From the NCBI RefSeq assembly GCF_019603315.1, contig NZ_CP080649.1, positions 3,544,176 to 3,608,175 on the forward strand: a stretch of DNA of 64,000 nt, read 5' to 3'. The stretch is from Ruficoccus sp. ZRK36 (lineage in GTDB: Bacteria; Verrucomicrobiota; Verrucomicrobiia; Opitutales; Cerasicoccaceae). Both the position numbers and the translations under genes were made by a program. Below, piece by piece: positions 5,513 to 63,576 of this stretch; the stretch's first letter is position 1, and each line of letters opens with the position of its first letter. The notes under the pieces are model-generated. The model was given only the letters and a program-made list of their open reading frames with translations. It was not told the origin of the DNA and did not search any database.

Positions 5513-5539
5513 CTCACACGGAGGCACTGGGGCACAGAG
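5513..5539 (+). repeat. Dispersed repeat, CACACGGAGGCAC family
   Basis: Single copy of a motif (core CTCACACGGAGGCACTGGGG) that recurs at 21133, 21234, 27979 and 28021 in this window. It lies between mrdA and the convergent GNAT gene. The same gap holds a second repeat-like stretch, atccgcgtaaatccgtgt (about 5644-5661). Confidence 0.65.
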
Positions 5540-5685
5540 CCTGTATTCAAAATTGGGTACATCGAGCGATCAGCATTAAGTCGCTGCCATCAATTTCCTG
5601 CGCTGCCCACCCCGTGTAACCTCTGGGGTCAATCCTCTTTCATCCGCGTAAATCCGTGTTTCAACTGGGGCTAAAAATAAAGCCC

Positions 5686-6180: not shown

Positions 6181-7132
6181 CAGCCGTCGCGCTCCCCTCT
6201 CCCGCTAACGCGGCAGCAACCGGTGCAAATACATCCTCCACGCTCAGCGCGTTCAGGCCCGCCACCGGGGCGCGCACCACGTGGTGTCGGGGATTCGAGA
6301 GCGGCCATGGGCCGAAACGCTCGGGCGGCGTCGGCCCGAAAATCGCGACTAGCTCGGTGCCGACCGCGGCAGCCAGATGCATGGGGCCGCTATCGTTGCA
6401 GACGCACAGCCGGGCCTGGCTGATGAGCGGGATCAGCTCCGGGAGCGTGGTCTTGCCGGTGAGGTTAAAGAACCGTTCGCGCGGCCACTCCAGCGGTGCG
6501 GTCACGGCCTGATCCCCGGCCCAGACAATGCGTGGCGCGGCTTCGCTGACGAGCAACTGCTCCGTCAGCGTGGCAAAGCCCGGCCACTCTTTTTCGGCCC
6601 GGCGGCTACCGGGGAAAAGCACAACGGCACCGGCGGCTTCGGGGGGCAGGTCTTTCGACTCTACCTCACGGAATGCCAGCGGCCCGTCTACCCGAGGCTC
6701 GAGCCCGAGCAGCGGCAGAAACTGCAAAAGAATATCCAGCGCGTGCGACTCTTTCCCACCCGCGGGCAGCTGTGGCATGAGTTGGTAGGCCAGACGCGCG
6801 CCCTCGCGGTTGTCGCGACGCCCGGCTTTTTTTCCGGCACGAGCACGCCATGTCATGAGGCCACTGCGAGCCAGCCCCTGCATATCCCAGACCCAGTCGT
6901 AGCGGCGCTGGCGGATCTCGCGGATGCATTGGCGCAGGCCGCTCATCCCGGCCTTGCGGTGAAAGACGATCACCTCATCCACGCAGGCGCAGGCCTGAGC
7001 CAGAGGTGCGAATATCTCGCGCGCCACCCAGGTGATGCGCACATCCGGGCGCTGCGCCTTGAGGGACTGGGCGGCCTGTAGACCGTGGATAATGTCCCCC
7101 AAAGACGAGGGTTTGATGATGAGCAGTTCCAA
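6161..7132 (-). CDS. Glycosyltransferase family 9, LPS heptosyltransferase I-like
   Basis: GT-B fold transferase of the ADP-heptose:LPS heptosyltransferase type, 323 aa. The N-terminus (LLIIKPSSLGDIIHGLQAAQ) is the GT9 signature and favours WaaC-like (HepI) over WaaF-like enzymes. The C-terminal nucleotide-sugar site is seen in LCVCNDSGPMHLAAAVGTEL (about residues 245-265) and IFGPTPPERFGPW. It would add heptose to Kdo-lipid A at the inner face of the cytoplasmic membrane. The start appears to be TTG at 7132. It is divergent from the fused acyltransferase/GT9 gene at 7219, which makes a small LPS locus. Confidence 0.88.
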   Translation of the reverse strand: MELLIIKPSSLGDIIHGLQAAQSLKAQRPDVRITWVAREIFAPLAQACACVDEVIVFHRKAGMSGLRQCIREIRQRRYDWVWDMQGLARSGLMTWRARAGKKAGRRDNREGARLAYQLMPQLPAGGKESHALDILLQFLPLLGLEPRVDGPLAFREVESKDLPPEAAGAVVLFPGSRRAEKEWPGFATLTEQLLVSEAAPRIVWAGDQAVTAPLEWPRERFFNLTGKTTLPELIPLISQARLCVCNDSGPMHLAAAVGTELVAIFGPTPPERFGPWPLSNPRHHVVRAPVAGLNALSVEDVFAPVAAALAGEGSATADGGTDA

Positions 7133-7218
7133 GCCGTTAGTTTAAACCTTTCAGGCGGGTTGTCGTCCAGCCGCATTTTTGACTTGGGCCGGAGCCCGAA
7201 TCCGGCTCTGCTGGGAAG

Positions 7219-9141
7219 GTGACCGGCTTTTTGCTCGACTGCCTGGGGCGCTTTTTCGCCTTCCTGCCTTTGGGGCTCTCCGAATGCTTCTGCAAGCTCA
7301 TCGGGGACGCGCTGTACTTCGGCCTGCCCGGTCGTCGCCGCGCCCTGCTCTCGAATCTCCACCATGCCTTTCCGGACAGGCCCCGCCAGTGGCACCGCCG
7401 CATCGCTCGCACGAGCTGCCGCCGTATGGCCGAGATGGGGCTGTACGTGCTGGTTTCCCCGGCCTTTTCCCTGGAGCGCCTGAAGCGACACTTTACCATC
7501 GACGACATCCTCCGGGCCGAAATCGAACGCTCGTGGCAGGTGAAGGAATCAGGCGTGGTGCTCATCCCCCACTTTTCGATGATGGAGGCACTGACGGCCC
7601 TGCCGGGTATATCCGGGCAGGAGATGCTTAATGTCGGGGTCATCTTCCGCCCGCTCAACCAGCCCGGTCTGGACCGCTGGGTCAAGCGCACCCGTGAGCG
7701 CTTCGGCGTAAAACTCCTCTCCCGCAAGGAGGGATTTGGAGCGTCCATGCAGCTCATGCAGGACGGCGGGCTCGTGGGCGTACTCTTCGACCAGAACGCC
7801 GGTAACAGCGGCACGTTGACGACGTTCTTTGGCCGTGTCGCCTCCACCACCGACCTGCCCGGCCTGCTGGCCCAGCGCAGCAAGACCCGCTCCGCCATCC
7901 TCTACACGGAGCGCACCGGGTTCTGGAAAGGCACGATCCGCGTCGTCATCCTGCCCTGCCCCCCCAAGTCCATCCCGATCATGCTCCACGCCAACCAATG
8001 GCTGGAAAACATCCTCGGAAGCAGCGATGAGATCTGCGCGGATTGGCTCTGGATGCACGCCCGCTGGCGCACTCAGGACGACCCCCGCAAGCGCTTCCGC
8101 CTGCAGGCCCGCCGCGAGGCCATCGAGGAGACGCTTGAGTTCTACGGGTGGGAAACTTTTCCGCGCAAGACACGCTTTTGGATACGCCTGCCCAACTGGC
8201 TCGGGGATGTGATCATGGCGCTGCCCCTCCTGCGCGCCCTGCGCATTTCCCGCCCCGACGCCGAGCTGACCCTGCTCGCACGCCCGCACTTCCTGCCACT
8301 GCTGGAGCGCTTCGGGCTGGGCGACCGCCTCCTCCCCCTGCCCGCCAAAAACGCCAGCGGCTACTTCAAGCCCTTCCGCCAGTGGCGCGAGGAGTACCCG
8401 GACGTCCACGTGCTTTTCACGAACTCCACCCGCGGCGACCTTGAGGCCCGCTGCATCGGCGCGCCCCAGCGCTTCGGGATCGCCCGCCCCGGCAAGCCCC
8501 GGCGCTCACTCACCCACACCTGGCCCCTGCCCGAGGGACTCGACGAGGCCACCGTCCACCAGACGCGCCTCTGGGAGCAGTTCTTCCGGCACTTCGGGCT
8601 GGAGGGTGAGCTCGATCTCACTCCGTTCGCATGGGAAGCACCCGCAGCCGCGACCTCCGCGCCACGCAAAGGGCCGCGCATCGGCCTAATTCCCGGCACG
8701 GAAAATTCCCCCGAGAAACGCTGGCCGGTCACCCACTGGCGCACACTCATCACCGCACTGCTGGAGGCTCAGCCCGAGGCCGACATCCGCACTTTTGGCA
8801 CCGAGCGCGACACCCCCATCACCCGGGAGGTGACGCGCGACTTCGCTCCGGAGCGGGTCATCGACCGAGCCGGTAAGACCGCGCTGGTCGAGTTCGCCGG
8901 GGAGCTGGCGGAGCTGGACCTGCTCATCTGCAACGACACCGGCGGCATGCACCTGGCGAACGCCCTAGGCGTGCCCGTGCTGGTCATTTTTGGTCCGACC
9001 AACCCCGTGCGCACCGGCCCGATCTTTAACGGCCCGACCCGCCTCCTCCAGCCCGCTGGTTGCCCCGAAACCGGTGGCATGCCCATCGAGCAGGTCTCCC
9101 CCGAGACCGTGCTGGAGCACACGCTGGAACTGATACCCTGA
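7219..9141 (+). CDS. Fused lipid A acyltransferase (LpxL/HtrB type) and GT9 heptosyltransferase (WaaF type)
   Basis: Two-domain protein of 640 aa starting at GTG 7219 behind gggaagg. Residues about 1-305 match the lysophospholipid acyltransferase/LpxL family, with the catalytic HX4E motif as H118-FSMM-E123 and the later SALY-like segment. A second domain begins near residue 318 (RFWIRLPNWLGDVIMALPLL), the start signature of LPS heptosyltransferase II, and includes the GT9 nucleotide-sugar site ICNDTGGMHLANALGVPVLV (about 570-590) and FGPTNPVRTGP. There is no stop or frame change at the join. The usual two separate membrane-associated enzymes, acylation of lipid A and addition of the second heptose, would thus be one polypeptide. 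Confidence 0.9.
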   Translation: MTGFLLDCLGRFFAFLPLGLSECFCKLIGDALYFGLPGRRRALLSNLHHAFPDRPRQWHRRIARTSCRRMAEMGLYVLVSPAFSLERLKRHFTIDDILRAEIERSWQVKESGVVLIPHFSMMEALTALPGISGQEMLNVGVIFRPLNQPGLDRWVKRTRERFGVKLLSRKEGFGASMQLMQDGGLVGVLFDQNAGNSGTLTTFFGRVASTTDLPGLLAQRSKTRSAILYTERTGFWKGTIRVVILPCPPKSIPIMLHANQWLENILGSSDEICADWLWMHARWRTQDDPRKRFRLQARREAIEETLEFYGWETFPRKTRFWIRLPNWLGDVIMALPLLRALRISRPDAELTLLARPHFLPLLERFGLGDRLLPLPAKNASGYFKPFRQWREEYPDVHVLFTNSTRGDLEARCIGAPQRFGIARPGKPRRSLTHTWPLPEGLDEATVHQTRLWEQFFRHFGLEGELDLTPFAWEAPAAATSAPRKGPRIGLIPGTENSPEKRWPVTHWRTLITALLEAQPEADIRTFGTERDTPITREVTRDFAPERVIDRAGKTALVEFAGELAELDLLICNDTGGMHLANALGVPVLVIFGPTNPVRTGPIFNGPTRLLQPAGCPETGGMPIEQVSPETVLEHTLELIP

Positions 9142-9901: not shown

Positions 9902-9945
9902 CAAACGCTCGGCATTTGATCCGATTGTGAGGCTCCCGCCCCTAC
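9899..9945 (+). repeat. Stop-codon-adjacent palindromic repeat, copy 1
   Basis: Begins with the TAG stop of the HNH gene and continues CAAACGCTCGGCATTTGAT, then a C-rich stretch ending in GCCCCTAC. The same start is found after gltD (27832) and sufT (58896). Confidence 0.7.
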
Positions 9946-10481: not shown

Positions 10482-10656
10482 CAAGCCACTTTTTCATTTA
10501 CGGCCAGCATGACAAGAAAGGAACATAAGCGGTCTTCCCCAAAACCTGACGTCGACCGCCGCTGCCATATCGCCGCCAAGGCGGCGGCATCACAGGTCAA
10601 GGACTCTGCCCTTGGAACTGCGTCCTGCCTTGACCGGGAGGAGTGGAGGATTCAGA

Positions 10657-11778
10657 ATGGGCAGTTTTATGAGCCAATCGTTCGTACCGCCGCTGGACCT
10701 GCAGTCCCTGCTTTCCCCGCACCGCGAAGCTATCGCCGAAGCCGTTTCCGAGGTCATCGCCTCTTGTGGTTACATCCTCGGGCCGAAAGTCGAAGCCTTC
10801 GAGCAGGCTTTCGCCGCCTACTGCGAAGCCCCGCACTGCATCGGCGTCAACAGCGGCACCTCCGCGCTCCACCTGGCCACACGCCTGCTCGACATCGGCC
10901 CCGGCGACGAGGTCATCACGACGCCCTACACCTTTGCCTCCAGCGCCTGGTGCGTTTCCTATCAGGGCGCGACGCCGGTTTTCGCGGACATCGATCCGGC
11001 GACCTTCTGTCTGGACCCCGCTGCGGTCGAGGCAGCGATCACACCCCGCACCAAGGCCATCGTAGCCGTCCACCTCTACGGACATCCCTGCGAGATGGAT
11101 GCGCTCAAGGCCATCTGCGACAAGCACGGTCTCGCCCTGATCGAGGACGCGGCCCAGGCCCACGGTGCCCGCTACAAGGGCAAGCGCGTCGGCTCGCTCG
11201 GTAACATGACCTGCTTCAGCTTTTACCCGACCAAAAACCTGCCCTGCGCCGGTGAAGGCGGGGCGCTCGTCACCGACAGCGACGAACTCGACAGCCACGG
11301 CCGGGCTCTGCGTAACCATGGCTCCATCGAGCGGTATTTCCACCACGAGGTCGGCTACAACTACCGGATGGAGGCCCTGCAGGGGGCCGTCCTCGGCGTC
11401 CTCCTGCCCCACCTCGAGGGTTGGACACAGGCGCGCCAGCGCATCGCCCACCGTTACCACGAGCTTTTGGACGGACTCCCGCTGGAGCTCCCGCGCGAAG
11501 CCGAGGGCTGCGAAAGCGTTTACCACCTTTACACCGTCCGCGCTCCCGAGCGCGACAAGCTCATCGCCAACCTCAAGGAGCAAGGCGTCGGCACCTCCAA
11601 CCACTACCCGCGTGCCATGCACCTGCAGCCCTGCTACGAAGGTCTCGGCTACAAGGAAGGCTCCATGCCCGTGGCCGAAAAGGCCGCCCAGCAGGCCGTC
11701 AACCTGCCCATGTTCCCGACCATGACCGACGAGCAGCAGGACCGCGTCTGCGCCGCCCTGCGTGCGTATTTCAGATGA
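10657..11778 (+). CDS. DegT/DnrJ/EryC1/StrS family PLP-dependent sugar aminotransferase
   Basis: Predicted aminotransferase acting on nucleotide-linked keto-sugars, 373 aa. It contains the family landmarks GVNSGTSALHLATRLL (cofactor phosphate site), EDAAQAHGARYKGKRVG and the Schiff-base lysine K193 in SFYPTKNLPCAGEGG, then RNHGSIERYFHHEVGYNYRM. ATG 10657 is chosen because it follows a strong gaggagtggagg at the right spacing; the in-frame reading upstream to 10612 lacks one. Such enzymes usually sit in O-antigen or polysaccharide clusters, but here it stands alone, followed at once by a mosaic repeat. Confidence 0.92.
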   Translation: MGSFMSQSFVPPLDLQSLLSPHREAIAEAVSEVIASCGYILGPKVEAFEQAFAAYCEAPHCIGVNSGTSALHLATRLLDIGPGDEVITTPYTFASSAWCVSYQGATPVFADIDPATFCLDPAAVEAAITPRTKAIVAVHLYGHPCEMDALKAICDKHGLALIEDAAQAHGARYKGKRVGSLGNMTCFSFYPTKNLPCAGEGGALVTDSDELDSHGRALRNHGSIERYFHHEVGYNYRMEALQGAVLGVLLPHLEGWTQARQRIAHRYHELLDGLPLELPREAEGCESVYHLYTVRAPERDKLIANLKEQGVGTSNHYPRAMHLQPCYEGLGYKEGSMPVAEKAAQQAVNLPMFPTMTDEQQDRVCAALRAYFR

Positions 11779-11782
11779 GTCA

Positions 11783-12065
11783 TGCGGGGCTACGCGCCCC
11801 GCACCTGCGGCAGGCAAAGCCTGCACTTTCGATGCTGCGCATCGTATCAGCGATTACCGAAACCAGTTTCACTGGTTTCGGTAATCGCTGAGCAAAGCAT
11901 CAAAACTGGACCAGCACCTTTAAACAAACGTACCGAAGTAGAGCGTCGAGATGCCGGTGCTATCAGATGCAGGATTCTATCCTGCCGGGGCAGCGACTGA
12001 AAGGAGCGATGGGGCGTAGCCCCATCAAGATGCGAAGCATCTAGGGTGCAGGGCCATGCCCTGCC
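11783..12065 (+). repeat. Mosaic palindromic intergenic element, copy 1
   Basis: About 280 bases made almost wholly of hairpins: GCGGGGCTACGCGCCCCGC, GCAGGCAAAGCCTGC, CGATGCTGCGCATCG, a perfect 21-bp stem with loop TTC (11847-11891), GATGGGGCGTAGCCCCATC, GATGCGAAGCATC and GCAGGGCCATGCCCTGC. The flanks of the long hairpin, GCGCATCGTATC and AGCATCAAAACTGG, recur in reverse orientation at 18244-18500 and, degenerate, at 36355. It fills the gap between the aminotransferase and the convergent acidic protein gene. No transposase is present. Confidence 0.8.
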
Positions 12066-12066
12066 T

Positions 12067-12423
12067 TCAGTCGTCGGCGAAGACGCGGGTGTCTTCCTCG
12101 GGTTCTTCTTCACCCTCGACGAATCCCGGAAAGAGGAAGCCCGTGAACTCCTCGGCCGTGGTGGGGACGGAGGCGGTGCCCTCCATCTGGGGGCGGGACC
12201 AGGCGAGCTCGCCCTCTGTGGCGCAGACGAGCAGCTCGCCGTCGCTGTCGCTAAAGAAAAGTTCCGGTGCCGGATGCTCGCCGAGGCCATAGGAGGCCTC
12301 ACGGAGATCTTCGAGCAGATCGACCAAATCGTCGCCATCACTGATCTCGCGAGCGAAAGGCTTATCCCCCAGGCGGGGCGTGCGCATGTCTTCTTCCAGG
12401 TGTCGGATACTGACTTTGAGCAT
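12067..12423 (-). CDS. Acidic hypothetical protein, 118 aa
   Basis: A 118-residue soluble protein starting at ATG 12423. No family is recognised. It is rich in Asp and Glu, especially at the C-terminus (FVEGEEEPEEDTRVF), and has no signal peptide or membrane segment. Its N-terminus MLKVSIRHLEEDMRTPRLGD could form a short strand-helix unit. It ends against the mosaic repeat at 12065 and faces away from purQ, whose start is about 240 bases downstream of its own start on the other strand. Codon use matches its neighbours, so it is probably a real gene of unknown role. Confidence 0.65.
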   Translation of the reverse strand: MLKVSIRHLEEDMRTPRLGDKPFAREISDGDDLVDLLEDLREASYGLGEHPAPELFFSDSDGELLVCATEGELAWSRPQMEGTASVPTTAEEFTGFLFPGFVEGEEEPEEDTRVFADD

Positions 12424-16331: not shown

Positions 16332-18245
16332 ATGTCCGACCAGATCAAACACGAGTGCGGGATTGCCATTGTGCGGCTTCTGAAGCCGCTTGGTTATTAC
16401 CAGGAAAAGTATGGGAGTGTGCTGTGGGGCTTTAACAAGCTCTTTCTGCTCATGGAGAAGCAGCATAACCGCGGCCAGGACGGGGCCGGCATTGGGGCGG
16501 TCAAGCTCGGCATGCCCCCGGGCGAGGCGTTCATGTTCCGTGAGCGGGACAACAGCCGCAACCCGATCTCCAAGGTCATCCGCAAGCAGCTGAAAATTTA
16601 CAACGACCTGCTCGACCGCGACGTCATCGTACCGGAGTTCCCGTGGACGGTGAAGGAGCACTGGCCCTTTGGGGCTGAGGTCCTGATGGGCCACCTGCGC
16701 TACGGCACCTCCGGCGGCTACGCCAAAACCGTCTGCCAGCCGTACTTCCGCAAGAGCCCCTGGCCCACCCGCAACCTCATGCTGGCGGGTAACTTCAACA
16801 TGACCAATGTTGAGGACCTCAACCAAAAGCTCATCGGACGCGGCGCACATCCGATTTTTGACACCGACACGCAGACTGTGCTGGAGGAGATCGGCTACCA
16901 TCTCGACGAGGAGCACACCCGCCTCTACCACGAGCTGCGCGACCGCAAGGTCCCCAACGACGAGATCGCCGGCACGATCAGCCAAAAGCTCGAACCCGCT
17001 GACATCCTCGCCCAGGCCTCCAAGGACTGGGACGGCGGCTACGCCTTTGGCGGGCTGATCGGTAACGGGGACGCCTTCCTCCTGCGCGATCCCAACGGCA
17101 TCCGCCCCGCTTACTATTTCCAGGACGACGAGGTCGTGGCCATGGCCTCCGAGCGCGTCGCCCTGATGACGATTTTCGAAAAAGACACCGATGAGGTGCG
17201 CGAGGTGCGCCCCGGCCACGCAGTGGTCGTGAAGCACTCCGGCGAAACCTACGAGAAGCAGGTCCTCGTCCCGCAGGAGCGCCGCAGCTGCTCCTTTGAG
17301 CGCATTTATTTCTCCCGTGGCAATGACCCGGAGATCTACGCCGAGCGCAAGGCTCTCGGCGCAGCCCTCGCCGACCAGGTGACAGAGGGCATCGGCGGAG
17401 ACGTCTCCAACAGCGTCTTCAGCTTCGTCCCCAACACCGCCGAGATCGCATACTACGGGCTAGTGGACGAGATGCGCCACCGCTGCCGCTCCCACTACGC
17501 CGATGAAATCCTGGAGGCCCAGGAAAGAGGTAAACTCGACCGCGACACCATCGACCGCATCCTCTCCAAGAAGTGGGTGCGCATGGAGAAAGTCGCCCAC
17601 AAGGACATCAAGCTGCGCACCTTTATCTCGCAGGAGAAGAACCGCGTACAGATGGCCTCCCACGTTTACGACATCACCTACGGCGTCGTAAAGCCGGACG
17701 ACCACCTCGTCGTGGTGGACGACTCGATCGTACGCGGCACCACCCTCAAGCGCTCCATCATCCGCATCCTTTCCAAGACCAACCCGAAAAAGATCATTGT
17801 CGCCTCGACCGCACCGCAGATCCGCTACCCGGACTGCTACGGCATCGACATGTCCGAGCTGGGTAAGTTCATCGCCTTCCAGGCAGCCGTCGAGCTGAAC
17901 AAGGAAACCGGCAACGAAGACGTTTTACAGGAAATCTACGCCGACTGCGTGCGCGAGCTGGAGAAGCCGCCCGAGCAGATGAAGAACTGCGTCAAGCGCC
18001 TCTACGAGCCCTTCACCGACGAGCAGATCTCCGCCAAGATCGCCCAGCTCGTCACCCCGAAGAAAAACGGCTGGAAGGGCAAGGTGCAGATCATTTACCA
18101 GTCCATCGAGAATCTTCACGCGGCATGCCCGCTCAATACCGGCGACTGGTACTTCACCGGCGACTATCCCACCCCCGGCGGGATGCGCGTCGTCAACCGT
18201 GCCTACATCTACTACTACGAGAAAAAAGAAGGCCGCAGCTACTGA
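16332..18245 (+). CDS. purF: Amidophosphoribosyltransferase, long form
   Basis: First committed enzyme of purine synthesis (PRPP plus glutamine to phosphoribosylamine). At 637 aa it is well over 100 residues longer than the E. coli or B. subtilis enzyme and resembles the long Bacteroidetes type. The Ntn glutaminase domain begins at C9 (MSDQIKHECGIAIV), so eight residues must be removed to free the nucleophile. GHLRYGTSGGY and DWDGGYAFGGLIGNGDAF follow. The phosphoribosyltransferase PRPP loop is LVVVDDSIVRGTTLKRSI (about 458-475). Extra sequence lies mainly in the C-terminal 150 residues. Confidence 0.94.
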   Translation: MSDQIKHECGIAIVRLLKPLGYYQEKYGSVLWGFNKLFLLMEKQHNRGQDGAGIGAVKLGMPPGEAFMFRERDNSRNPISKVIRKQLKIYNDLLDRDVIVPEFPWTVKEHWPFGAEVLMGHLRYGTSGGYAKTVCQPYFRKSPWPTRNLMLAGNFNMTNVEDLNQKLIGRGAHPIFDTDTQTVLEEIGYHLDEEHTRLYHELRDRKVPNDEIAGTISQKLEPADILAQASKDWDGGYAFGGLIGNGDAFLLRDPNGIRPAYYFQDDEVVAMASERVALMTIFEKDTDEVREVRPGHAVVVKHSGETYEKQVLVPQERRSCSFERIYFSRGNDPEIYAERKALGAALADQVTEGIGGDVSNSVFSFVPNTAEIAYYGLVDEMRHRCRSHYADEILEAQERGKLDRDTIDRILSKKWVRMEKVAHKDIKLRTFISQEKNRVQMASHVYDITYGVVKPDDHLVVVDDSIVRGTTLKRSIIRILSKTNPKKIIVASTAPQIRYPDCYGIDMSELGKFIAFQAAVELNKETGNEDVLQEIYADCVRELEKPPEQMKNCVKRLYEPFTDEQISAKIAQLVTPKKNGWKGKVQIIYQSIENLHAACPLNTGDWYFTGDYPTPGGMRVVNRAYIYYYEKKEGRSY

Positions 18246-18500
18246 AGGGCAAGCCCTTCACCCTAGATGCTTCGCATCTTGATGGGGCTCCGCCCCATTA
18301 ATTGCTGGTGATCCTGTTACGCATCGACCCAACTGGCCTATAAGCTCCAGCCTCTTGCCATTTAGTGGTGACCCAGTTTTGATGCTCTGCTCCGTGTTTG
18401 CTGAAAGCAGAGTATCTGCTTTCAGCAAACACGGACACGATGCGTAGCATCGAAAGTGCAGCCCTCGGCTGCCGCGGGGGACTGGGGGCGCGTAGCCCCC
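18244..18500 (-). repeat. Mosaic palindromic intergenic element, copy 2 (reverse orientation)
   Basis: Read on the minus strand it repeats the plan of the copy at 11783: a GC-rich hairpin, GGGCTGCACTTTCGATGCT, a perfect 21-bp hairpin with a 3-base loop (18391-18435), GAGCATCAAAACTGG, then ATGGGGCGGAGCCCCATC, AGATGCGAAGCATCT and AAGGGCTTGCCCTT. The 21-bp arm differs from that of copy 1 at 7 positions, and all 7 are compensated in the second arm. It fills the gap between purF and the convergent prfA. Confidence 0.8.
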
Positions 18501-18527: not shown

Positions 18528-19610
18528 TTACTTGCCAGCGTTCATCGCGTCGAGGCGGGCCTGCAGGTCGGCGCGGCGGAGAGCTTCGACGAGGTCGTCG
18601 AGGGCCCCTTCCATCACGGGGGGCAGGGACAGGCTCAGGCCGATACGGTGATCGGTCAGGCGATTCTGCGGAAAGTTATAGGTACGGATACGCTCGGAGC
18701 GGTCACCCGTGCCGACTTGGCTGCGGCGGTCGGCGGCATACTTTTCCTGCTCCTCACGCTGCTTGGCCTCCAGCAGGCGCGAACGCATCACCGTCAGCGC
18801 CTTGGCGCGGTTCTTATGCTGGGAGCGCTCATCGGCGCAGTAAACGGTGACACCGGTCGGCTTGTGGGTCATCTGCACGGCCGAGTCGGTGGTGTTGACG
18901 TGCTGGCCACCCGCCCCGCTGGCGCGCGTGGTGGTGATCTCCAGATCCTCGGGCTTGATCTCGATGTCCACCTCTTCAGCTTCGGGGAGCACAGCCACGG
19001 TCGCGGTCGAGGTGTGAATGCGTCCGCTGGCCTCGGTGGCCGGGACACGCTGCACGCGGTGGACGCCGGACTCGTACTTGAGCACCTTGTAGACATCCTC
19101 GCCGGTGATGAGAAAAGAGATTTCCTTAAAACCGCCCGCGTCAGACTCGCTCGCGCCCATGGGCTCGACCTTCCAGCCGCTGGCGTCGGCGTAGCGGTGG
19201 TACATGCGGGTGAGGTCCCCGGCAAAGAGCGAGGCCTCGTCCCCACCAGCCCCGGCACGGATTTCGATAATCGTGTTGCGCGAGTCGCTCGGGTCGGGCG
19301 GCAGCATGGCGAGCAGGAGCTCTTCACGCTTGGCGGCCAGCTCTTCTTCCAGCCCGGCGATTTCCTCCTCGGCCAGTTCCTTAAGCTCGGCATCAGCATC
19401 GGGGTCACCGATCAAGGCGCGGTTTCCCGCCAGGTCGTCCTCGAGCTTGGCCGCGGCATCATACATCCCGATGATCTCGCTCAAGCGGGTATGCTCACGC
19501 CCGAGCTCGGCGGCCTTGCGCTGGTCGGAGAAAAAGTCCGGCTCGGCCATCTTGGCGTCGAGTTCTTCCTTGCGGGTGCGAAACGGTGCGATGTCGGGGA
19601 TGCCTTCCAT
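18528..19610 (-). CDS. prfA: Peptide chain release factor 1
   Basis: Recognises UAA and UAG and triggers peptide release on the ribosome. It is 360 aa, the normal RF1 length. The GGQ loop is [18 protein letters not shown] (about residues 230-247), where the glutamine is the usual methylation site. The codon-recognition PxT motif reads PAT in [14 protein letters not shown], which marks RF1 rather than RF2 (SPF). No prmC methyltransferase gene follows; a small membrane protein lies upstream. Confidence 0.96.
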
Positions 19611-21132: not shown

Positions 21133-21253
21133 CTCACACGGAGGCACAGGGGCACGGAGATTTAATCTCGATTGAGATAACCTTGGTGTTGAGCGGTGGC
21201 GACTTCGGCGGGGCGCTGGGCTTATCGGGCTTTCCACTGTGCCTCCGTGTGAG
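21133..21253. repeat. Inverted pair of CACACGGAGGCAC repeats
   Basis: Arm one is CTCACACGGAGGCACAGGGG (21133-21152). Arm two, read on the other strand, is CTCACACGGAGGCACAGTGG (21234-21253). They agree at 19 of 20 positions and enclose about 80 bases, so the unit could fold as a long hairpin or be a small inverted-repeat element. Confidence 0.65.
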
Positions 21254-27940: not shown

Positions 27941-27976
27941 AAAGCCGCAGCGCGTGTATCGCCTGCGGCTTTTTTA
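27941..27976 (+). terminator. Rho-independent terminator after gltD
   Basis: Stem AAGCCGCAG / CTGCGGCTT with a GC-rich loop, followed by TTTTT. It ends the gltBD transcript. Confidence 0.8.
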
Positions 27977-27978
27977 TG

Positions 27979-28048
27979 CTCACACGGAGGCACTGAGGCG
28001 CAGAGTTTGGATTGGCATTTCCTCCGTGCCTCAGTGCCTCCGTGTGAG
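27979..28048. repeat. Inverted pair of CACACGGAGGCAC repeats
   Basis: Two copies in opposite orientation; the first 21 bases of each arm (27979-27999 and 28028-28048) pair perfectly. The rest of the arms is related and the spacer is short. The unit lies between the gltD terminator and the convergent kup gene. Confidence 0.75.
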
Positions 28049-28068
28049 TCATAAAACGCCCCCCTCCC

Positions 28069-36272: not shown

Positions 36273-36354
36273 AGTTTCGATGAGAAAGAGGATTGCTGCG
36301 CAGCATTGAACAGGCCAACCCCAGCGGCAACCCTAAACTCAAGCGCACGGCATG

Positions 36355-36550
36355 AGTGCGCATCGTTTCAGTAAGCCGCTGATAGAAGAACATCAAAACC
36401 GGAGTGCTACCAAACCCCAATCGTATTGGACGGAAAATGGCGGGATCGTGTCAGGTGAAATCTCCATGGCGGTCCAACGTTTGAGCGCAGCTCGGACGCT
36501 GGACCGAAAGTGCAGGCTTTGCCTGCCGCGGGTGCGGGCTGCGCAAGCCC
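36355..36550 (-). repeat. Degenerate mosaic element, partial copy
   Basis: Two pieces of the mosaic repeat. At 36357-36402 GCGCATCGTTTCAG, a shortened hairpin TCAGTAAGCCGCTGA, and ACATCAAAACCGG match the flanks of the long hairpin at 11847. At 36495-36550, read on the minus strand, GGGCTTGCGCAGCCC, GCGGCAGGCAAAGCCTGC and ACTTTCGG match the beginning of the element. The pieces have opposite orientation, so this copy is rearranged. It occupies most of the 297-base gap between the binding protein gene and acs. Confidence 0.6.
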
Positions 36551-36569
36551 GAAAAATCAACCCGTTTAC

Positions 36570-40522: not shown

Positions 40523-40626
40523 AAGTCAGTCAGCGGGCCTGCCTCGACCACAGCAGCAATCCCCCCTCAGGACCTTTAGCCGCGAAGCTTAGTGTGGAGT
40601 CAGCTAAGTCTTTAGTAAAAATATTT

Positions 40627-40652
40627 CACCGCAGAGACACAAAGGCGCAGAG
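40627..40652 (+). repeat. Dispersed repeat, CGCAGAGACACAAAG family
   Basis: CACCGCAGAGACACAAAGGC followed by GCAGAG. A related copy is found on the other strand at 43841. The rest of the 205-base gap (40523-40727) also holds ttgcgccttttcgtggcc, a possible second arm. Confidence 0.6.
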
Positions 40653-40727
40653 CGGTTCAGCCATTGATGGCGCATTATGTGTTTTTTGCGCCTTTTCGTG
40701 GCCTGTTAATTCTTGGCTAACGGGACA

Positions 40728-41747
40728 CTAGGAGCCGACGGCCAGACGCTGGAACTGGCTGAGCACGAACTGGCTGAGCGCGCGCAGACGCGGGACCGGC
40801 TCCAGCTCGGCAAAGGGCTCCAGAACGGCCTCGGCCTTGTTCAGCTCCTGCTCAAAGCTGGAGCTCACCTCGGCGATGACGGCGTAGTCCTTCATCAGCT
40901 CGACCAGCTGCGAAGCTTCCAGCTCCCCACGGCGCACGCGCTGCAGGAAGAGCTTCTGCTCGCCACGGGGCAAACGCTGAAGCAGAACCAGCACCGGCAG
41001 GGTAAATTTACCACTGGCCAAGTCGGTGCCGAGGGTCTTGCCGATCTTTTCCTCGTCTCCGAGGTAGTCGGCCAAATCGTCAAAAATCTGGTAGGCCACA
41101 CCCAGGTGGCGACTGAACTTACCGGCAGCCTCGGCGAACTCCGGCTCGTAGCCGGCCAGCGAAGCGCCCAGGTGCGAGGAGACCGAGAACAGCTCGGCGG
41201 TCTTCAGGTCGATGACCCGGAAGTACTCCTCCAGCGAAAAGTCGGCATTACCGCGCTCAAAGGTCTGGCGAATCTCCCCGGCGCACACGCGGCGAGTGGA
41301 GAGCGAAACCGCCCGGCACACATCGACCGTCGGGAACTCGGCGGCGAGCACCAGCGCCTGAGAAAAGAGTGCATCCCCCAGCAAGACGGCGGCGGTGGAG
41401 CCATAGCGCGCGCTCACGGTGTCCGAGTTGTGGCGCAGCGTGGCATCATCGAGGATATCGTCGTGGATCAGCGTGGCCAGGTGGACCAGCTCGACAACGG
41501 CGGCGGCACGTACCAGCTCAGGGCTGACCACATCCTCACGCCAGCCTCCGAAGAAGACCAGCAGCGGGCGCAGACGCTTCCCCTGGTTCTGGAGGCTGTA
41601 GCGCACCAGATCGCGGATATCCGTCTCGAAACGCTCAACCTGCGTGTCAAGAAATCTGTCCAGTGCCTGCATATGCGGGACCACCGGCTTTACGATGTCG
41701 TCAAAGGCCGGAGGGCGCGGCTGGCTTTTATTTTGTGCGGTCAGCAT
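40728..41747 (-). CDS. Polyprenyl (octaprenyl-type) diphosphate synthase
   Basis: Trans-isoprenyl diphosphate synthase of 339 aa. The first Asp-rich motif is ATLIHDDILDDATLRHN and the second is YQIFDDLADYLGDEEKIGK, each with the DDxxD arrangement. QGKRLRPLLVFFGG is the substrate-binding start. Small residues five places before the first motif (HLATL) fit a long-chain enzyme such as IspB, which makes the side chain of quinones; chain length cannot be fixed by eye. It is convergent with hpnB and divergent from the CPBP protease gene. Confidence 0.93.
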   Translation of the reverse strand: MLTAQNKSQPRPPAFDDIVKPVVPHMQALDRFLDTQVERFETDIRDLVRYSLQNQGKRLRPLLVFFGGWREDVVSPELVRAAAVVELVHLATLIHDDILDDATLRHNSDTVSARYGSTAAVLLGDALFSQALVLAAEFPTVDVCRAVSLSTRRVCAGEIRQTFERGNADFSLEEYFRVIDLKTAELFSVSSHLGASLAGYEPEFAEAAGKFSRHLGVAYQIFDDLADYLGDEEKIGKTLGTDLASGKFTLPVLVLLQRLPRGEQKLFLQRVRRGELEASQLVELMKDYAVIAEVSSSFEQELNKAEAVLEPFAELEPVPRLRALSQFVLSQFQRLAVGS

Positions 41748-45960: not shown

Positions 45961-46066
45961 GCCGGGTTGCATCCGGTGGCGTTGATGACTCCACCTTCGT
46001 GGAGCCATGGACAACGGCGATTGATGCCTGCTCAAAGGAACTCCGCGTACGAAGTGAAAAGAGAAA

Positions 46067-46131
46067 GGGGCAGCGAACGCAAGGAGCGATGGGGCAGAGC
46101 CCCATCAATCGGATCAAACGCCGAGCGTTTG
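46067..46131 (+). repeat. Palindromic repeat, GATGGGGC/CAAACGC type
   Basis: GGGGCAGCGAACGCAAGGAG, then GATGGGGCAGAGCCCCATC, then AATCGGATCAAACGCCGAGC and GTTTG. It is the reverse complement of the copy at 58896. It lies just downstream of queD. Confidence 0.7.
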
Positions 46132-47393: not shown

Positions 47394-47457
47394 GGGCTTA
47401 CGCAGCCCTGCACCCGCGGCAAGTCCGGCTGGACCAGCATTTAGCCTGCACTTTCGA
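47394..47457 (+). repeat. Mosaic element, partial copy with internal insert
   Basis: GGGCTTACGCAGCCC, TGCACCCGCGGCAAG and GCCTGCACTTTCGA match the beginning of the mosaic element at 11783, but GGCTGGACCAGCATTTA lies between the last two parts. It is in the 256-base gap between queC and the tautomerase gene. Confidence 0.6.
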
Positions 47458-47472
47458 GTAGTTGGTCATTGA

Positions 47473-47525
47473 GGGGTAGCGAACGCAGTGAGCGATGGGG
47501 CTTAGCCCCATCAATGTCCTGTGCG
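47473..47525 (+). repeat. Palindromic repeat, GATGGGGC type, with CCTGTGCGGTC end
   Basis: GGGGTAGCGAACGCAGTGAG, CGATGGGGCTTAGCCCCATC, AATGTCCTGTGCGGTC. The copy at 62804, read on the minus strand, has the same end. It sits 10 bases from the tautomerase stop. Confidence 0.7.
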
Positions 47526-47534
47526 GTCACGCAC

Positions 47535-58331: not shown

Positions 58332-58898
58332 ATGTCTGCAGATAACCACCGTACCCTGACCCGCGAAGTCGAGGCCACCGTCATTCCCGCCGGTGACAAG
58401 ATCAACCTGCCCGAAGGCATGGAGGTGGACATCACCCACCGCCTTGGCGGCAACTTTACCATCGTCTGCGACTACGGGATGTTCCGCATCCTCGGTAAGG
58501 ACGCCGACGCCCTCGGCGAAGACAGCCCGGACGCTGCTGCTGCTGAGAGCGATGCAGCCGCCGCCAGCACTGAGCCCTCCGGCCCTCCCGAGGAAGGCAC
58601 TCTGTGGGAGGCTCTCAAGACTGTTTACGACCCGGAAATCCCGGTCAACATCGTGGACCTCGGCCTCGTCTACTCGCTCGACATCGCCCCGCGCGAAGAA
58701 GGCGGCTACAAGGTCTCCGTCCAGATGACCCTGACCGCTCCCGGCTGCGGGATGGGCCCGGCCATCGCCGAGGACGCCCGCATCCGCTGCGAGTCCGTGC
58801 CCGGCGTCGGCGAGGCTCAGGTGGACATCGTCTGGGACCCGCCCTGGAATCAGGACATGATCTCCGAAGACGGCAAGATGGAGCTCGGCCTCATCTAG
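58332..58898 (+). CDS. sufT: Fe-S cluster assembly protein SufT (MIP18/DUF59)
   Basis: 188 aa. An N-terminal domain ([40 protein letters not shown]) is joined by an acidic Ala-rich linker (about 60-88) to a MIP18-like domain with [20 protein letters not shown] and the cysteine loop [18 protein letters not shown]. SufT helps cluster transfer or maturation. It is coupled to sufD by a 6-base gap and ends the SUF run. Its TAG stop is the first base of a dispersed palindromic repeat. sufS and sufE/U are not in the window. Confidence 0.95.
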
Positions 58899-58963
58899 CA
58901 AACGCTCGGCGTTTGATCCGATTGATGGGGCTCTGCCCCATCGCTCACTGCAGTCGCTGCCCC
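58896..58963 (+). repeat. Stop-codon-adjacent palindromic repeat, copy 3
   Basis: Begins at the sufT TAG: TAGCAAACGCTCGGCGTTTG, ATCCGATT, GATGGGGCTCTGCCCCATC, GCTCACTGCAGTCGCTGCCC. It contains both the CAAACGC and the GATGGGGC palindromes and is the longest copy of this type. Confidence 0.75.
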
Positions 58964-59109
58964 GCAGGGCGAGGCTTGGGACCATGATCGTTCGGGTCAC
59001 CTTAGTGTTTTCAGGGGAGAATACCGTAGCGCCTGTTCTGTAAAGCAGCGGCATTCACCTCTCCTCCCTGACTTGACGCTTTCCTCTGCCCGGCTTTCCT
59101 TATGTGCAG

Positions 59110-59760
59110 ATGAAAGCTATCGCGTATCTACTGGCGTTGTGCACCGCCCTGCCTTTGTCGGCCGAACTCGAATGGGAGACGATGTCTCTGACGGTTCCGG
59201 CCTCGTTTGGGCAGGAGAGTCTGGAGGCGACCTACCCCTTTAAAAATACCGGCAGCACACCGGTCGAAATCCTGGAGGTAAAAACCTCCTGTGGCTGCAC
59301 CTATGCCGCTGCCAGCCGCACGATGGTTGCGCCCGGTGAATCCGCCGAGATAGCCGCGTTTTTCGAGACCGAGGACCGCGAAGGTCCACAGCACTCGACC
59401 ATCACCGTGCTGACGGACGAGAAAGACCATCCGGCCACCGTGCTGAACTTTCGCTCTGACATCCCGGTCGCTGCAAATCTGCCCACCCGTGTCGTCAAGT
59501 GGCGCGCCAGCGATACGGCCGAGACCAAGTCCCTCGACATCCCGGTCGAGCCCGGCGTGAGCCTTACCCTGCAAACCCCGAAGCGCCCGCTACCCGTATC
59601 GGCGGTACTCGAGAAAAAGCAGGACGGCGATCAGCGTAGCTACCACTTATCCCTGACTCCGCTCGGCGGCGAGACAGGCTCGGGGATTCTCCCCATCGAG
59701 GCCAACTGGGGCAGTGGCCAGTCGCGCGTTTATAATATCTACGTCCGCGTTGCTCAGTAG
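59110..59760 (+). CDS. Secreted DUF1573 domain protein
   Basis: 216 aa from ATG 59110 with a signal peptide (MKAIAYLLALCTALPLSAEL). The DUF1573 Ig-like domain is shown by TYPFKNTGSTPVEILEVKTS followed by CGCTYAAASRTMVAPGESAE and IAAFFETEDREGPQHSTIT. A second part of about 80 residues (WRASDTAETKSLDIPVEPGV onward) is beta-rich and resembles the product of the convergent gene at 59770. DUF1573 proteins are common in Bacteroidetes and Planctomycetes/Verrucomicrobia, are exported, and have no settled role. Confidence 0.88.
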   Translation: MKAIAYLLALCTALPLSAELEWETMSLTVPASFGQESLEATYPFKNTGSTPVEILEVKTSCGCTYAAASRTMVAPGESAEIAAFFETEDREGPQHSTITVLTDEKDHPATVLNFRSDIPVAANLPTRVVKWRASDTAETKSLDIPVEPGVSLTLQTPKRPLPVSAVLEKKQDGDQRSYHLSLTPLGGETGSGILPIEANWGSGQSRVYNIYVRVAQ

Positions 59761-63066: not shown

Positions 63067-63576
63067 CTACTCAGCCTTGGGGGCTTCCTCTTCGGCAGCA
63101 GCTTCTTCGGTTTCCTCGATCGGATTTTCCGAAACGACTTCCCACTCGAACTCGACGGTCACCTCGGGGTGCAGCTTCACCTTGGTGGTGTGCTTGCCGA
63201 GGGCCTTGACCGGGGAGTACAGGTTGAGCTGCTTGCGGTCCAGCTCGACGCCGTCTTCCTTGAAGCGGTCGATCAGGTCCTGAGCGGTAACGGAGCCGAA
63301 CATCTTGCCACCTTCGCCGGTCTTGACCGCGATAGCGATGCTGACCTTTTCGATCTTGGCGGCCAGTTCCTGGGCGTTACCGAGCTCCTGAGCTTCGCGC
63401 TCAGCGCGGCGCTTCTGGAGGGCGTCGATGTACTTCTGGTTGGCGCGGTTCACCGGCAGGGCCAGCTTACGCGGGAGGAGGAAGTTGCGGGCGTAACCAG
63501 CCTTGACGTTAACCTGGTCGCCTTCGCCGCCGAGTCCGGCTACGGGCTCAAGAAGGAGGATGTCTGTCGTTGCCAT
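63067..63576 (-). CDS. rplI: 50S ribosomal protein L9
   Basis: 169 aa. The N-terminal domain has VAGLGGEGDQVNVKAGYARN and FLLPRKLALPVNRANQKYID, the L9 rRNA-binding signature, joined by the long helix (LQKRRAEREAQELGNAQELA) to the C-terminal domain (GSVTAQDLIDRFKEDGVELD). An acidic tail of about 20 residues (EETEEAAAEEEAPKAE) extends beyond the usual 149-residue length. It follows rplS by 32 bases and shares its strand. The usual neighbours rpsF, ssb and rpsR are not here. Confidence 0.97.
   Translation of the reverse strand: MATTDILLLEPVAGLGGEGDQVNVKAGYARNFLLPRKLALPVNRANQKYIDALQKRRAEREAQELGNAQELAAKIEKVSIAIAVKTGEGGKMFGSVTAQDLIDRFKEDGVELDRKQLNLYSPVKALGKHTTKVKLHPEVTVEFEWEVVSENPIEETEEAAAEEEAPKAE

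Follow-up and report, generated by a model that had tools for sequence, protein, structure and literature searches.

The window analysed here is a 64,000-nt stretch of the Ruficoccus sp. ZRK36 genome in which two intergenic gaps are occupied by long arrays of palindromes. The first array starts with a GC-rich hairpin (M1) directly 3′ of the stop codon of an aminotransferase gene (10612-11778), and the second fills the gap between two convergent genes, 16332-18245(+) and prfA (18528-19610, -). The hairpin modules far exceed what chance would produce, and the two arrays are inverted relatives: positions 11804-11917 match 18365-18478 over 114 nt (77%), and positions 12009-12054 match 18253-18298 over 46 nt (96%). 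Each contains a perfect 21-bp stem (M4), located at 18391-18435 in the second copy. An earlier note on this DNA had described the gaps at 11783-12065 and 18244-18500 as the same modules in opposite orientation. This was borne out by the inverted matches and by both stems, but the GGGGCAGCG... module (11986-12008) is missing from the 18244 copy. The partial copies that the note had placed near 36355 and 47394 proved real, the former as an M3-M5 remnant with an inverted M2-M1 end and the latter as a degenerate head with SQ-GW-VC cassettes (Table 1).

The element contains no gene, as had been noted, and a search of the window against Rfam returned no match above the gathering score. Its predicted folding was strong on either strand (z about -9). 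In the predicted fold, the AG-CB tail, which reads as an inverted and diverged M3-M2, pairs with the head. A separate repeat family, CTCACACGGAGGCACTGAGGCGCAGAG, is found at 5513-5547, 21133-21167 and 27967-28060 of the window, once as a 39-nt inverted pair.

Table 1. Palindromic features of the window, in window coordinates.
Feature	Position	Strand	Remarks
M1, GC-rich hairpin TGCGGGGCTACGCGCCCCGCA	11783..11803	+	outer pairs vary among copies
M2, hairpin GCAGGCAAAGCCTGC	11810..11824	+	column pair 53-59 is G-C in 22/43 and C-G in 16/43 copies
TGCACTTTC and M3, hairpin CGATGCTGCGCATCG	11822..11844	+	best-conserved part; holds the 14-mer with 53 exact genome matches
M4, perfect palindromic stem of 21 bp, 3-nt loop	11847..11891	+	sequence new in nearly each copy
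M5, GCAAAGCATCAAAACTGG..., conserved single-stranded stretch 3′ of the M4 stem	11892..11920	+	
M6, weakly conserved middle	11921..11985	+	no similarity detected to the MITE-form right end
SQ-GW cassette (GGGGCAGCGACTGAAAGGAGCG and GATGGGGCGTAGCCCCATC)	11986..12026	+	elsewhere in the window also without a head
AG-CB cassette (AGATGCGAAGCATCT and AGGGTGCAGGGCCATGCCCTGC)	12028..12064	+	abuts the stop codon of gene 12067-12423(-)
Second head-bearing copy, M1-M5 with GW-AG-CB tail	18244..18500	-	SQ absent
Degenerate copy: remnant of M3-M5, followed by hairpin GGTCCAACGTT..GGACC and inverted M2-M1 end	36350..36553	+	no long stem
Degenerate head with M1, an altered M2 and the first part of M3; SQ-GW-VC cassettes follow	47394..47534	+	
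Head-less cassette	9902..9942	+	abuts a TAG stop codon
Head-less SQ-GW-CQ cassette	46066..46131	+	between convergent genes
Head-less CQ-GW-SQ cassette	58899..58966	-	abuts the TAG stop of gene 58332-58898
Unit with IS630-type TIRs (TAGTGT...), different interior	40589..40730	.	141 bp; between convergent genes

Layout and range of the head

The generic head consists of M1, M2 (CAGGC/GCCTG), GCACTTTC, M3 (CGATGC/GCATCG), M4 and M5 (CATCAAAACTGGGTCGCCACC). The M1-M5 order was constant across 43 aligned copies, with M1 hairpins in tandem at some ends, and the module sequences varied while this layout was kept, which agrees with the earlier description. A genome-wide search, as the earlier note had proposed, was carried out in the 3.76-Mb genome from which the window comes (G000). 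BLAST with positions 11780-12070 detected ~39 more copies of the left half (100-130 nt, E<=1e-20), with the 18244 copy at E 1e-22, and the right part gave separate short matches. The 14-mer TGCACTTTCGATGC had 53 exact sites in G000; when up to two mismatches were allowed, it gave 98 matches, against 23 for its reversed control.

A covariance model of the head, with E<1e-20 taken as strong, gave about 49 strong matches for G000; G001, one of the three other genus members compared (G001, G002 and G003), has about 50. Because G001 contigs (C1, C11, C103, C135 and C145) terminate within or beside heads, copy counts for that genome are lower bounds; the hairpins probably break its assembly. The copies used from G002 and G003 are a sample of the best model matches. 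When 372 genomes from the order were searched, strong matches were confined to the genus and were numerous in all four members. A few moderate matches were present in G005, which belongs to another genus, and the three other matches were weak (E 6e-5 to 7e-4). We consider it probable, jointly with the full account given below, that the feature belongs to a genus-restricted, non-coding family of composite palindromic repeats that resembles MITEs and BIMEs. It is best read as a new variant of the known small mobile or mosaic bacterial repeats, and not as an ordinary REP, a terminator or a known RNA family.

TIR-bounded units in sister species and the search for a transposase

In G002 and G003, the head forms the interior of compact units of 192-211 bp (~208 bp) bounded by imperfect terminal inverted repeats (TIRs; TAGTGTnCnGTTAGCnAAGTT...), which are mostly preceded by C, giving the site CTAG. 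G002 also encodes IS630-type insertion sequences (ISs) of 1146-1161 bp with 359-365-aa DDE_3 proteins, and these ISs and the head-bearing units have TAGTGT...GTTAGC ends in common. Where two TIR units adjoin, one TA is common to both. Elements of the IS630 family target TA and duplicate it on insertion (PMC2170065), and the reference list of the same paper includes a report of IS630 preference for CTAG. Given the IS-matching TIRs, the CTAG site and the TA duplication, the G002 and G003 units are well explained as IS630-type MITEs. At loci L264 and L280 of G002, an IS630-type IS, 208-bp head-bearing MITEs and a 152-bp MITE lie in chains, with the TA common to neighbours. The same genome carries TIR-less mosaic copies as well.

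Matches to the DDE_3 profile (PF13358) were obtained in G001, G002 and G005, and the same search gave none in G000 or G003. No resident IS630-type IS was found in G003 despite its TIR units. The head-bearing copies in the window lack IS630-type TIRs, and thus they are not classed as IS630-type MITEs; as G000 has no DDE_3 match, they are probably not now moved by IS630. The 141-bp TIR unit at 40589-40730 also sits in this genome without a DDE_3 match. We considered whether M6 might be an eroded right end of the MITE form, and this was rejected, as its HMM scores were no better than those of shuffles. In a tree of the cores, whose rooting is arbitrary, the MITE-form cores formed a single, moderately supported clade (0.79), nested next to mosaic cores. 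Judged from these sequences, a shared ancestry of the head core across the MITE and mosaic forms appears clear. The link through one core between a mosaic that lacks a transposase, a MITE and a resident IS630 transposon may show how bacterial mosaic repeats originate.

The palindrome mosaic, its occurrence in both orientations and its extragenic position at 3′ ends recall REPs (PMC3733652, PMC2817692), which would make RAYT (Y1) transposases the agent of spread of a REP/BIME system. However, the Y1_Tnp profile (PF01797) had no match in G000, where the controls worked, or in G002 and G003, and only weak ones in G001, and good matches occurred in family members without the element. The stems are 21 bp long and no GTAG/CGTC tag was seen at their foot; by eye, the M4 stem is flanked by GTGTC...GAGCA in the 43 copies. 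A RAYT-driven origin is therefore highly improbable, and the earlier note was right to separate the element from simple REPs, given that no tag was seen and no RAYT was found in G000.

Interchangeable tails and insertion sites

The region 3′ of the head begins with a variable stretch, which is followed by SQ-GW and then SC, VC or AG-CB, by FL-GT-CB, or by an inverted end. The fixed order of seven modules proposed in the earlier note did not hold beyond the head: the exact SQ-GW-AG-CB tail of the first copy was present in only 2 of 45 annotated copies. The internal order of the tail cassettes is near-constant (SQ-GW 14:0, FL-GT 8:0, GT-CB 9:0, GW-SC 7:0 and GW-VC 6:0, cassette order against its reverse), and whole cassettes are interchangeable, two of them standing in series on two copies. 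The inverted M2-M1 end was seen in several G000 copies and in most G001 copies examined, and with it at the far end the whole unit is roughly symmetrical. Since the tails swap and also occur without a head, the seven-module element is one combination among several, and cassette exchange rules out a single fixed element.

Related gene ends in the four genomes bear on how the cassettes move. The rplI gene (63067-63576, bL9, named from its own sequence) ends in AAG GCx GAG TAR in G000, G002 and G003, which represents the empty site. In G001, ~63 nt with three hairpins lie between AAG and GAG TAA (L226, about 1310-1390), and a hairpin loop provides the new stop codon. This insert shows that a cassette can arrive at the end of a gene in one piece. 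No target duplication was clearly visible there, and none was seen for the mosaic form. Gene 58332-58898 is followed, immediately 3′ of its stop codon, by different cassettes in G000 and G002. G001 lacks a cassette at this spot, and in G003 a 173-bp TIR unit sits at the CTAG of the stop codon. The site of a G001 head on C118 was also examined as an empty site in G000 and was discarded because G000 holds a partial copy there.

The insertion into rplI suits a model of hairpins that move independently as palindromes, in which what looks like one element arises by repeated insertion at the same tolerant spots. Cassettes without a head and the tandem M1 hairpins at some ends fit this model too. Against it, M1-M5 have a single order in the 43 aligned copies and the cassettes are almost never reversed, so multi-hairpin units exist; we regard fully independent hairpins as unlikely. 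The one-element reading of the earlier note, to which it had opposed independent insertion at empty sites, survives in part. A multi-module unit is repeated, but the head forms a unit of its own, the tails are distinct cassettes found alone as well, and the G001 rplI cassette, inserted by itself where three other species have an empty site, goes partway towards that objection.

Two rearrangements were observed near copies. The reading frame 59104-59760 is inverted relative to its neighbours in G001, G002 and G003 and has palindromic cassettes on one side, and an inversion at repeats is possible. On L274 of G001, synteny with G000 breaks twice at the positions of heads (7123-7458 and 10927-11123), which suggests recombination between copies.

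Gene ends, stem pairing and related repeats

With gene ends taken from a simple codon-based gene caller, 28 of 44 heads lay between convergent genes, compared with 11 of the 54 window gaps (Fisher p=2.4e-5), and just 1 of the 44 classifiable heads lay between divergent genes. The median distance from the upstream stop codon to the start of the head was 8.5 nt, and 40 of 44 tails faced a 3′ end. Heads between codirectional genes had the tail toward the end of the upstream gene in 12 cases ('--') and the head toward it in 3 ('++'). Targeting of stop codons (CTAG) by the window form was unconvincing, as TAG made up 33 of 72 stops beside heads and 17 of 54 among window genes.

This location, the near absence between divergent genes, the strong folding of both strands and the excess of codirectional copies with the tail toward the upstream gene would be expected of a functional RNA structure. 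In such a role, the transcribed hairpins would guard the ends of mRNAs or keep read-through out of convergent genes, and the compensatory changes would result from selection for pairing in the RNA. However, no intrinsic terminator (a GC hairpin with a T run in the gene sense) was found at M1 or at the tail of the window copies. The sole terminator call inside either window element falls in the second copy, inside its M4 stem. Intrinsic terminators of the ordinary kind are present close by, and orthologous gene ends are often without the element.

The pairing of the M4 stem bears on the same alternative. In 44 G000 copies, 42 distinct arms formed 916 Watson-Crick pairs, no G-T pair and 3 mismatches. 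As this search restricted mismatches, it was rerun with laxer limits in all species, giving 1831 Watson-Crick pairs, no G-T pair and 26 others, including 9 A-C. In the 43-sequence alignment, two-sided changes filled 160 cells against 35 expected from shuffles, and one-sided changes were almost absent. M2 showed the same kind of paired change (G-C 22, C-G 16). Several stems in G003, where the MITE-form copies are more alike, contain mismatches; the perfection of pairing is therefore not instantaneous. At orthologous gene ends, including the prfA site, stems differed by 0.36, a figure inflated by one misregistered pair, compared with 0.33 for random pairs. The arms thus change together and quickly, and part of this could come from exchange among copies or from repeated insertion.

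Selection on RNA usually passes through G-U intermediates. Because intermediates of this type are nearly absent, copying from arm to arm at the DNA level is favoured, and the data suggest homogenisation of the arms, for example by template switching. All 9 transition-type mismatches are A-C, an excess over G-T of 9:0, and A-C corresponds to G-U in RNA read from tail to head, so that there could be some selection at the RNA level. Nevertheless, wobble-type intermediates number at most 9 of about 1857 pairs and two-sided changes are common, and we consider a functional RNA somewhat unlikely as the main explanation. Template switching is a documented source of multi-base compensatory change (PMC8794818). 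We tentatively propose that arm-to-arm copying of DNA, and not RNA selection, keeps these long palindromes near-perfect while each copy has its own stem within a fixed 21+3+21 frame with conserved positions. If true, each genome would offer tens of natural replicates of DNA-level concerted evolution of palindrome arms. An old question is how perfect stems alter their sequence while avoiding broken intermediates, and with ~50 copies per genome, several species and mostly two-sided changes, template switching and RNA selection can be set against each other in a direct test.

The account that we find probable as a whole is a shared-core repeat family at gene ends, with an IS630-moved MITE form, a reshuffled mosaic form and DNA-level copying of arms. 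Both forms would descend from a common ancestor, and the MITE form would be moved in trans by the IS630 transposase. The window copies may persist and be reshuffled through cassette insertion, deletion and recombination. Insertions between gene ends would survive because they do little harm there. The palindromes could drift and yet stay perfect if template switching at hairpins copies one arm onto the other. Selection for a transcribed 3′-end hairpin may add to this, and alone it would not give so few intermediates.

Several known systems resemble this family. RUP of Streptococcus pneumoniae and Correia/NEMIS of Neisseria are small non-coding TIR units with TA ends; the ends of RUP match a resident IS630 element, like the G002 and G003 units, and RUP is over-represented between convergent genes, like the heads (PMC2229807, PMC3049150). 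In contrast to RUP and Correia, the window copies have neither TIRs nor a transposase, and the interior consists of hairpins with near-perfect, sequence-variable stems joined to interchangeable cassettes. BOX of S. pneumoniae is similar by description in its modularity, variable content, strong RNA fold and excess between convergent genes, but it reuses three modules (A, B and C), whereas here a fixed head joins several palindromic cassettes (PMC3049150). REP/BIME systems with RAYT likewise form extragenic palindrome mosaics at 3′ ends, and complementary changes have been reported in REP palindromes too (PMC3733652, PMC2817692); the present family differs in having no RAYT, no visible GTAG/CGTC tag, a much longer stem and a multi-hairpin head. 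Quasipalindrome correction, or template-switch mutation (PMC8794818, PMC7202029), predicts perfect arms, two-sided multi-base changes and few intermediates. Template switching has been described as a mutational process, whereas here we propose that it may maintain a repeat family.
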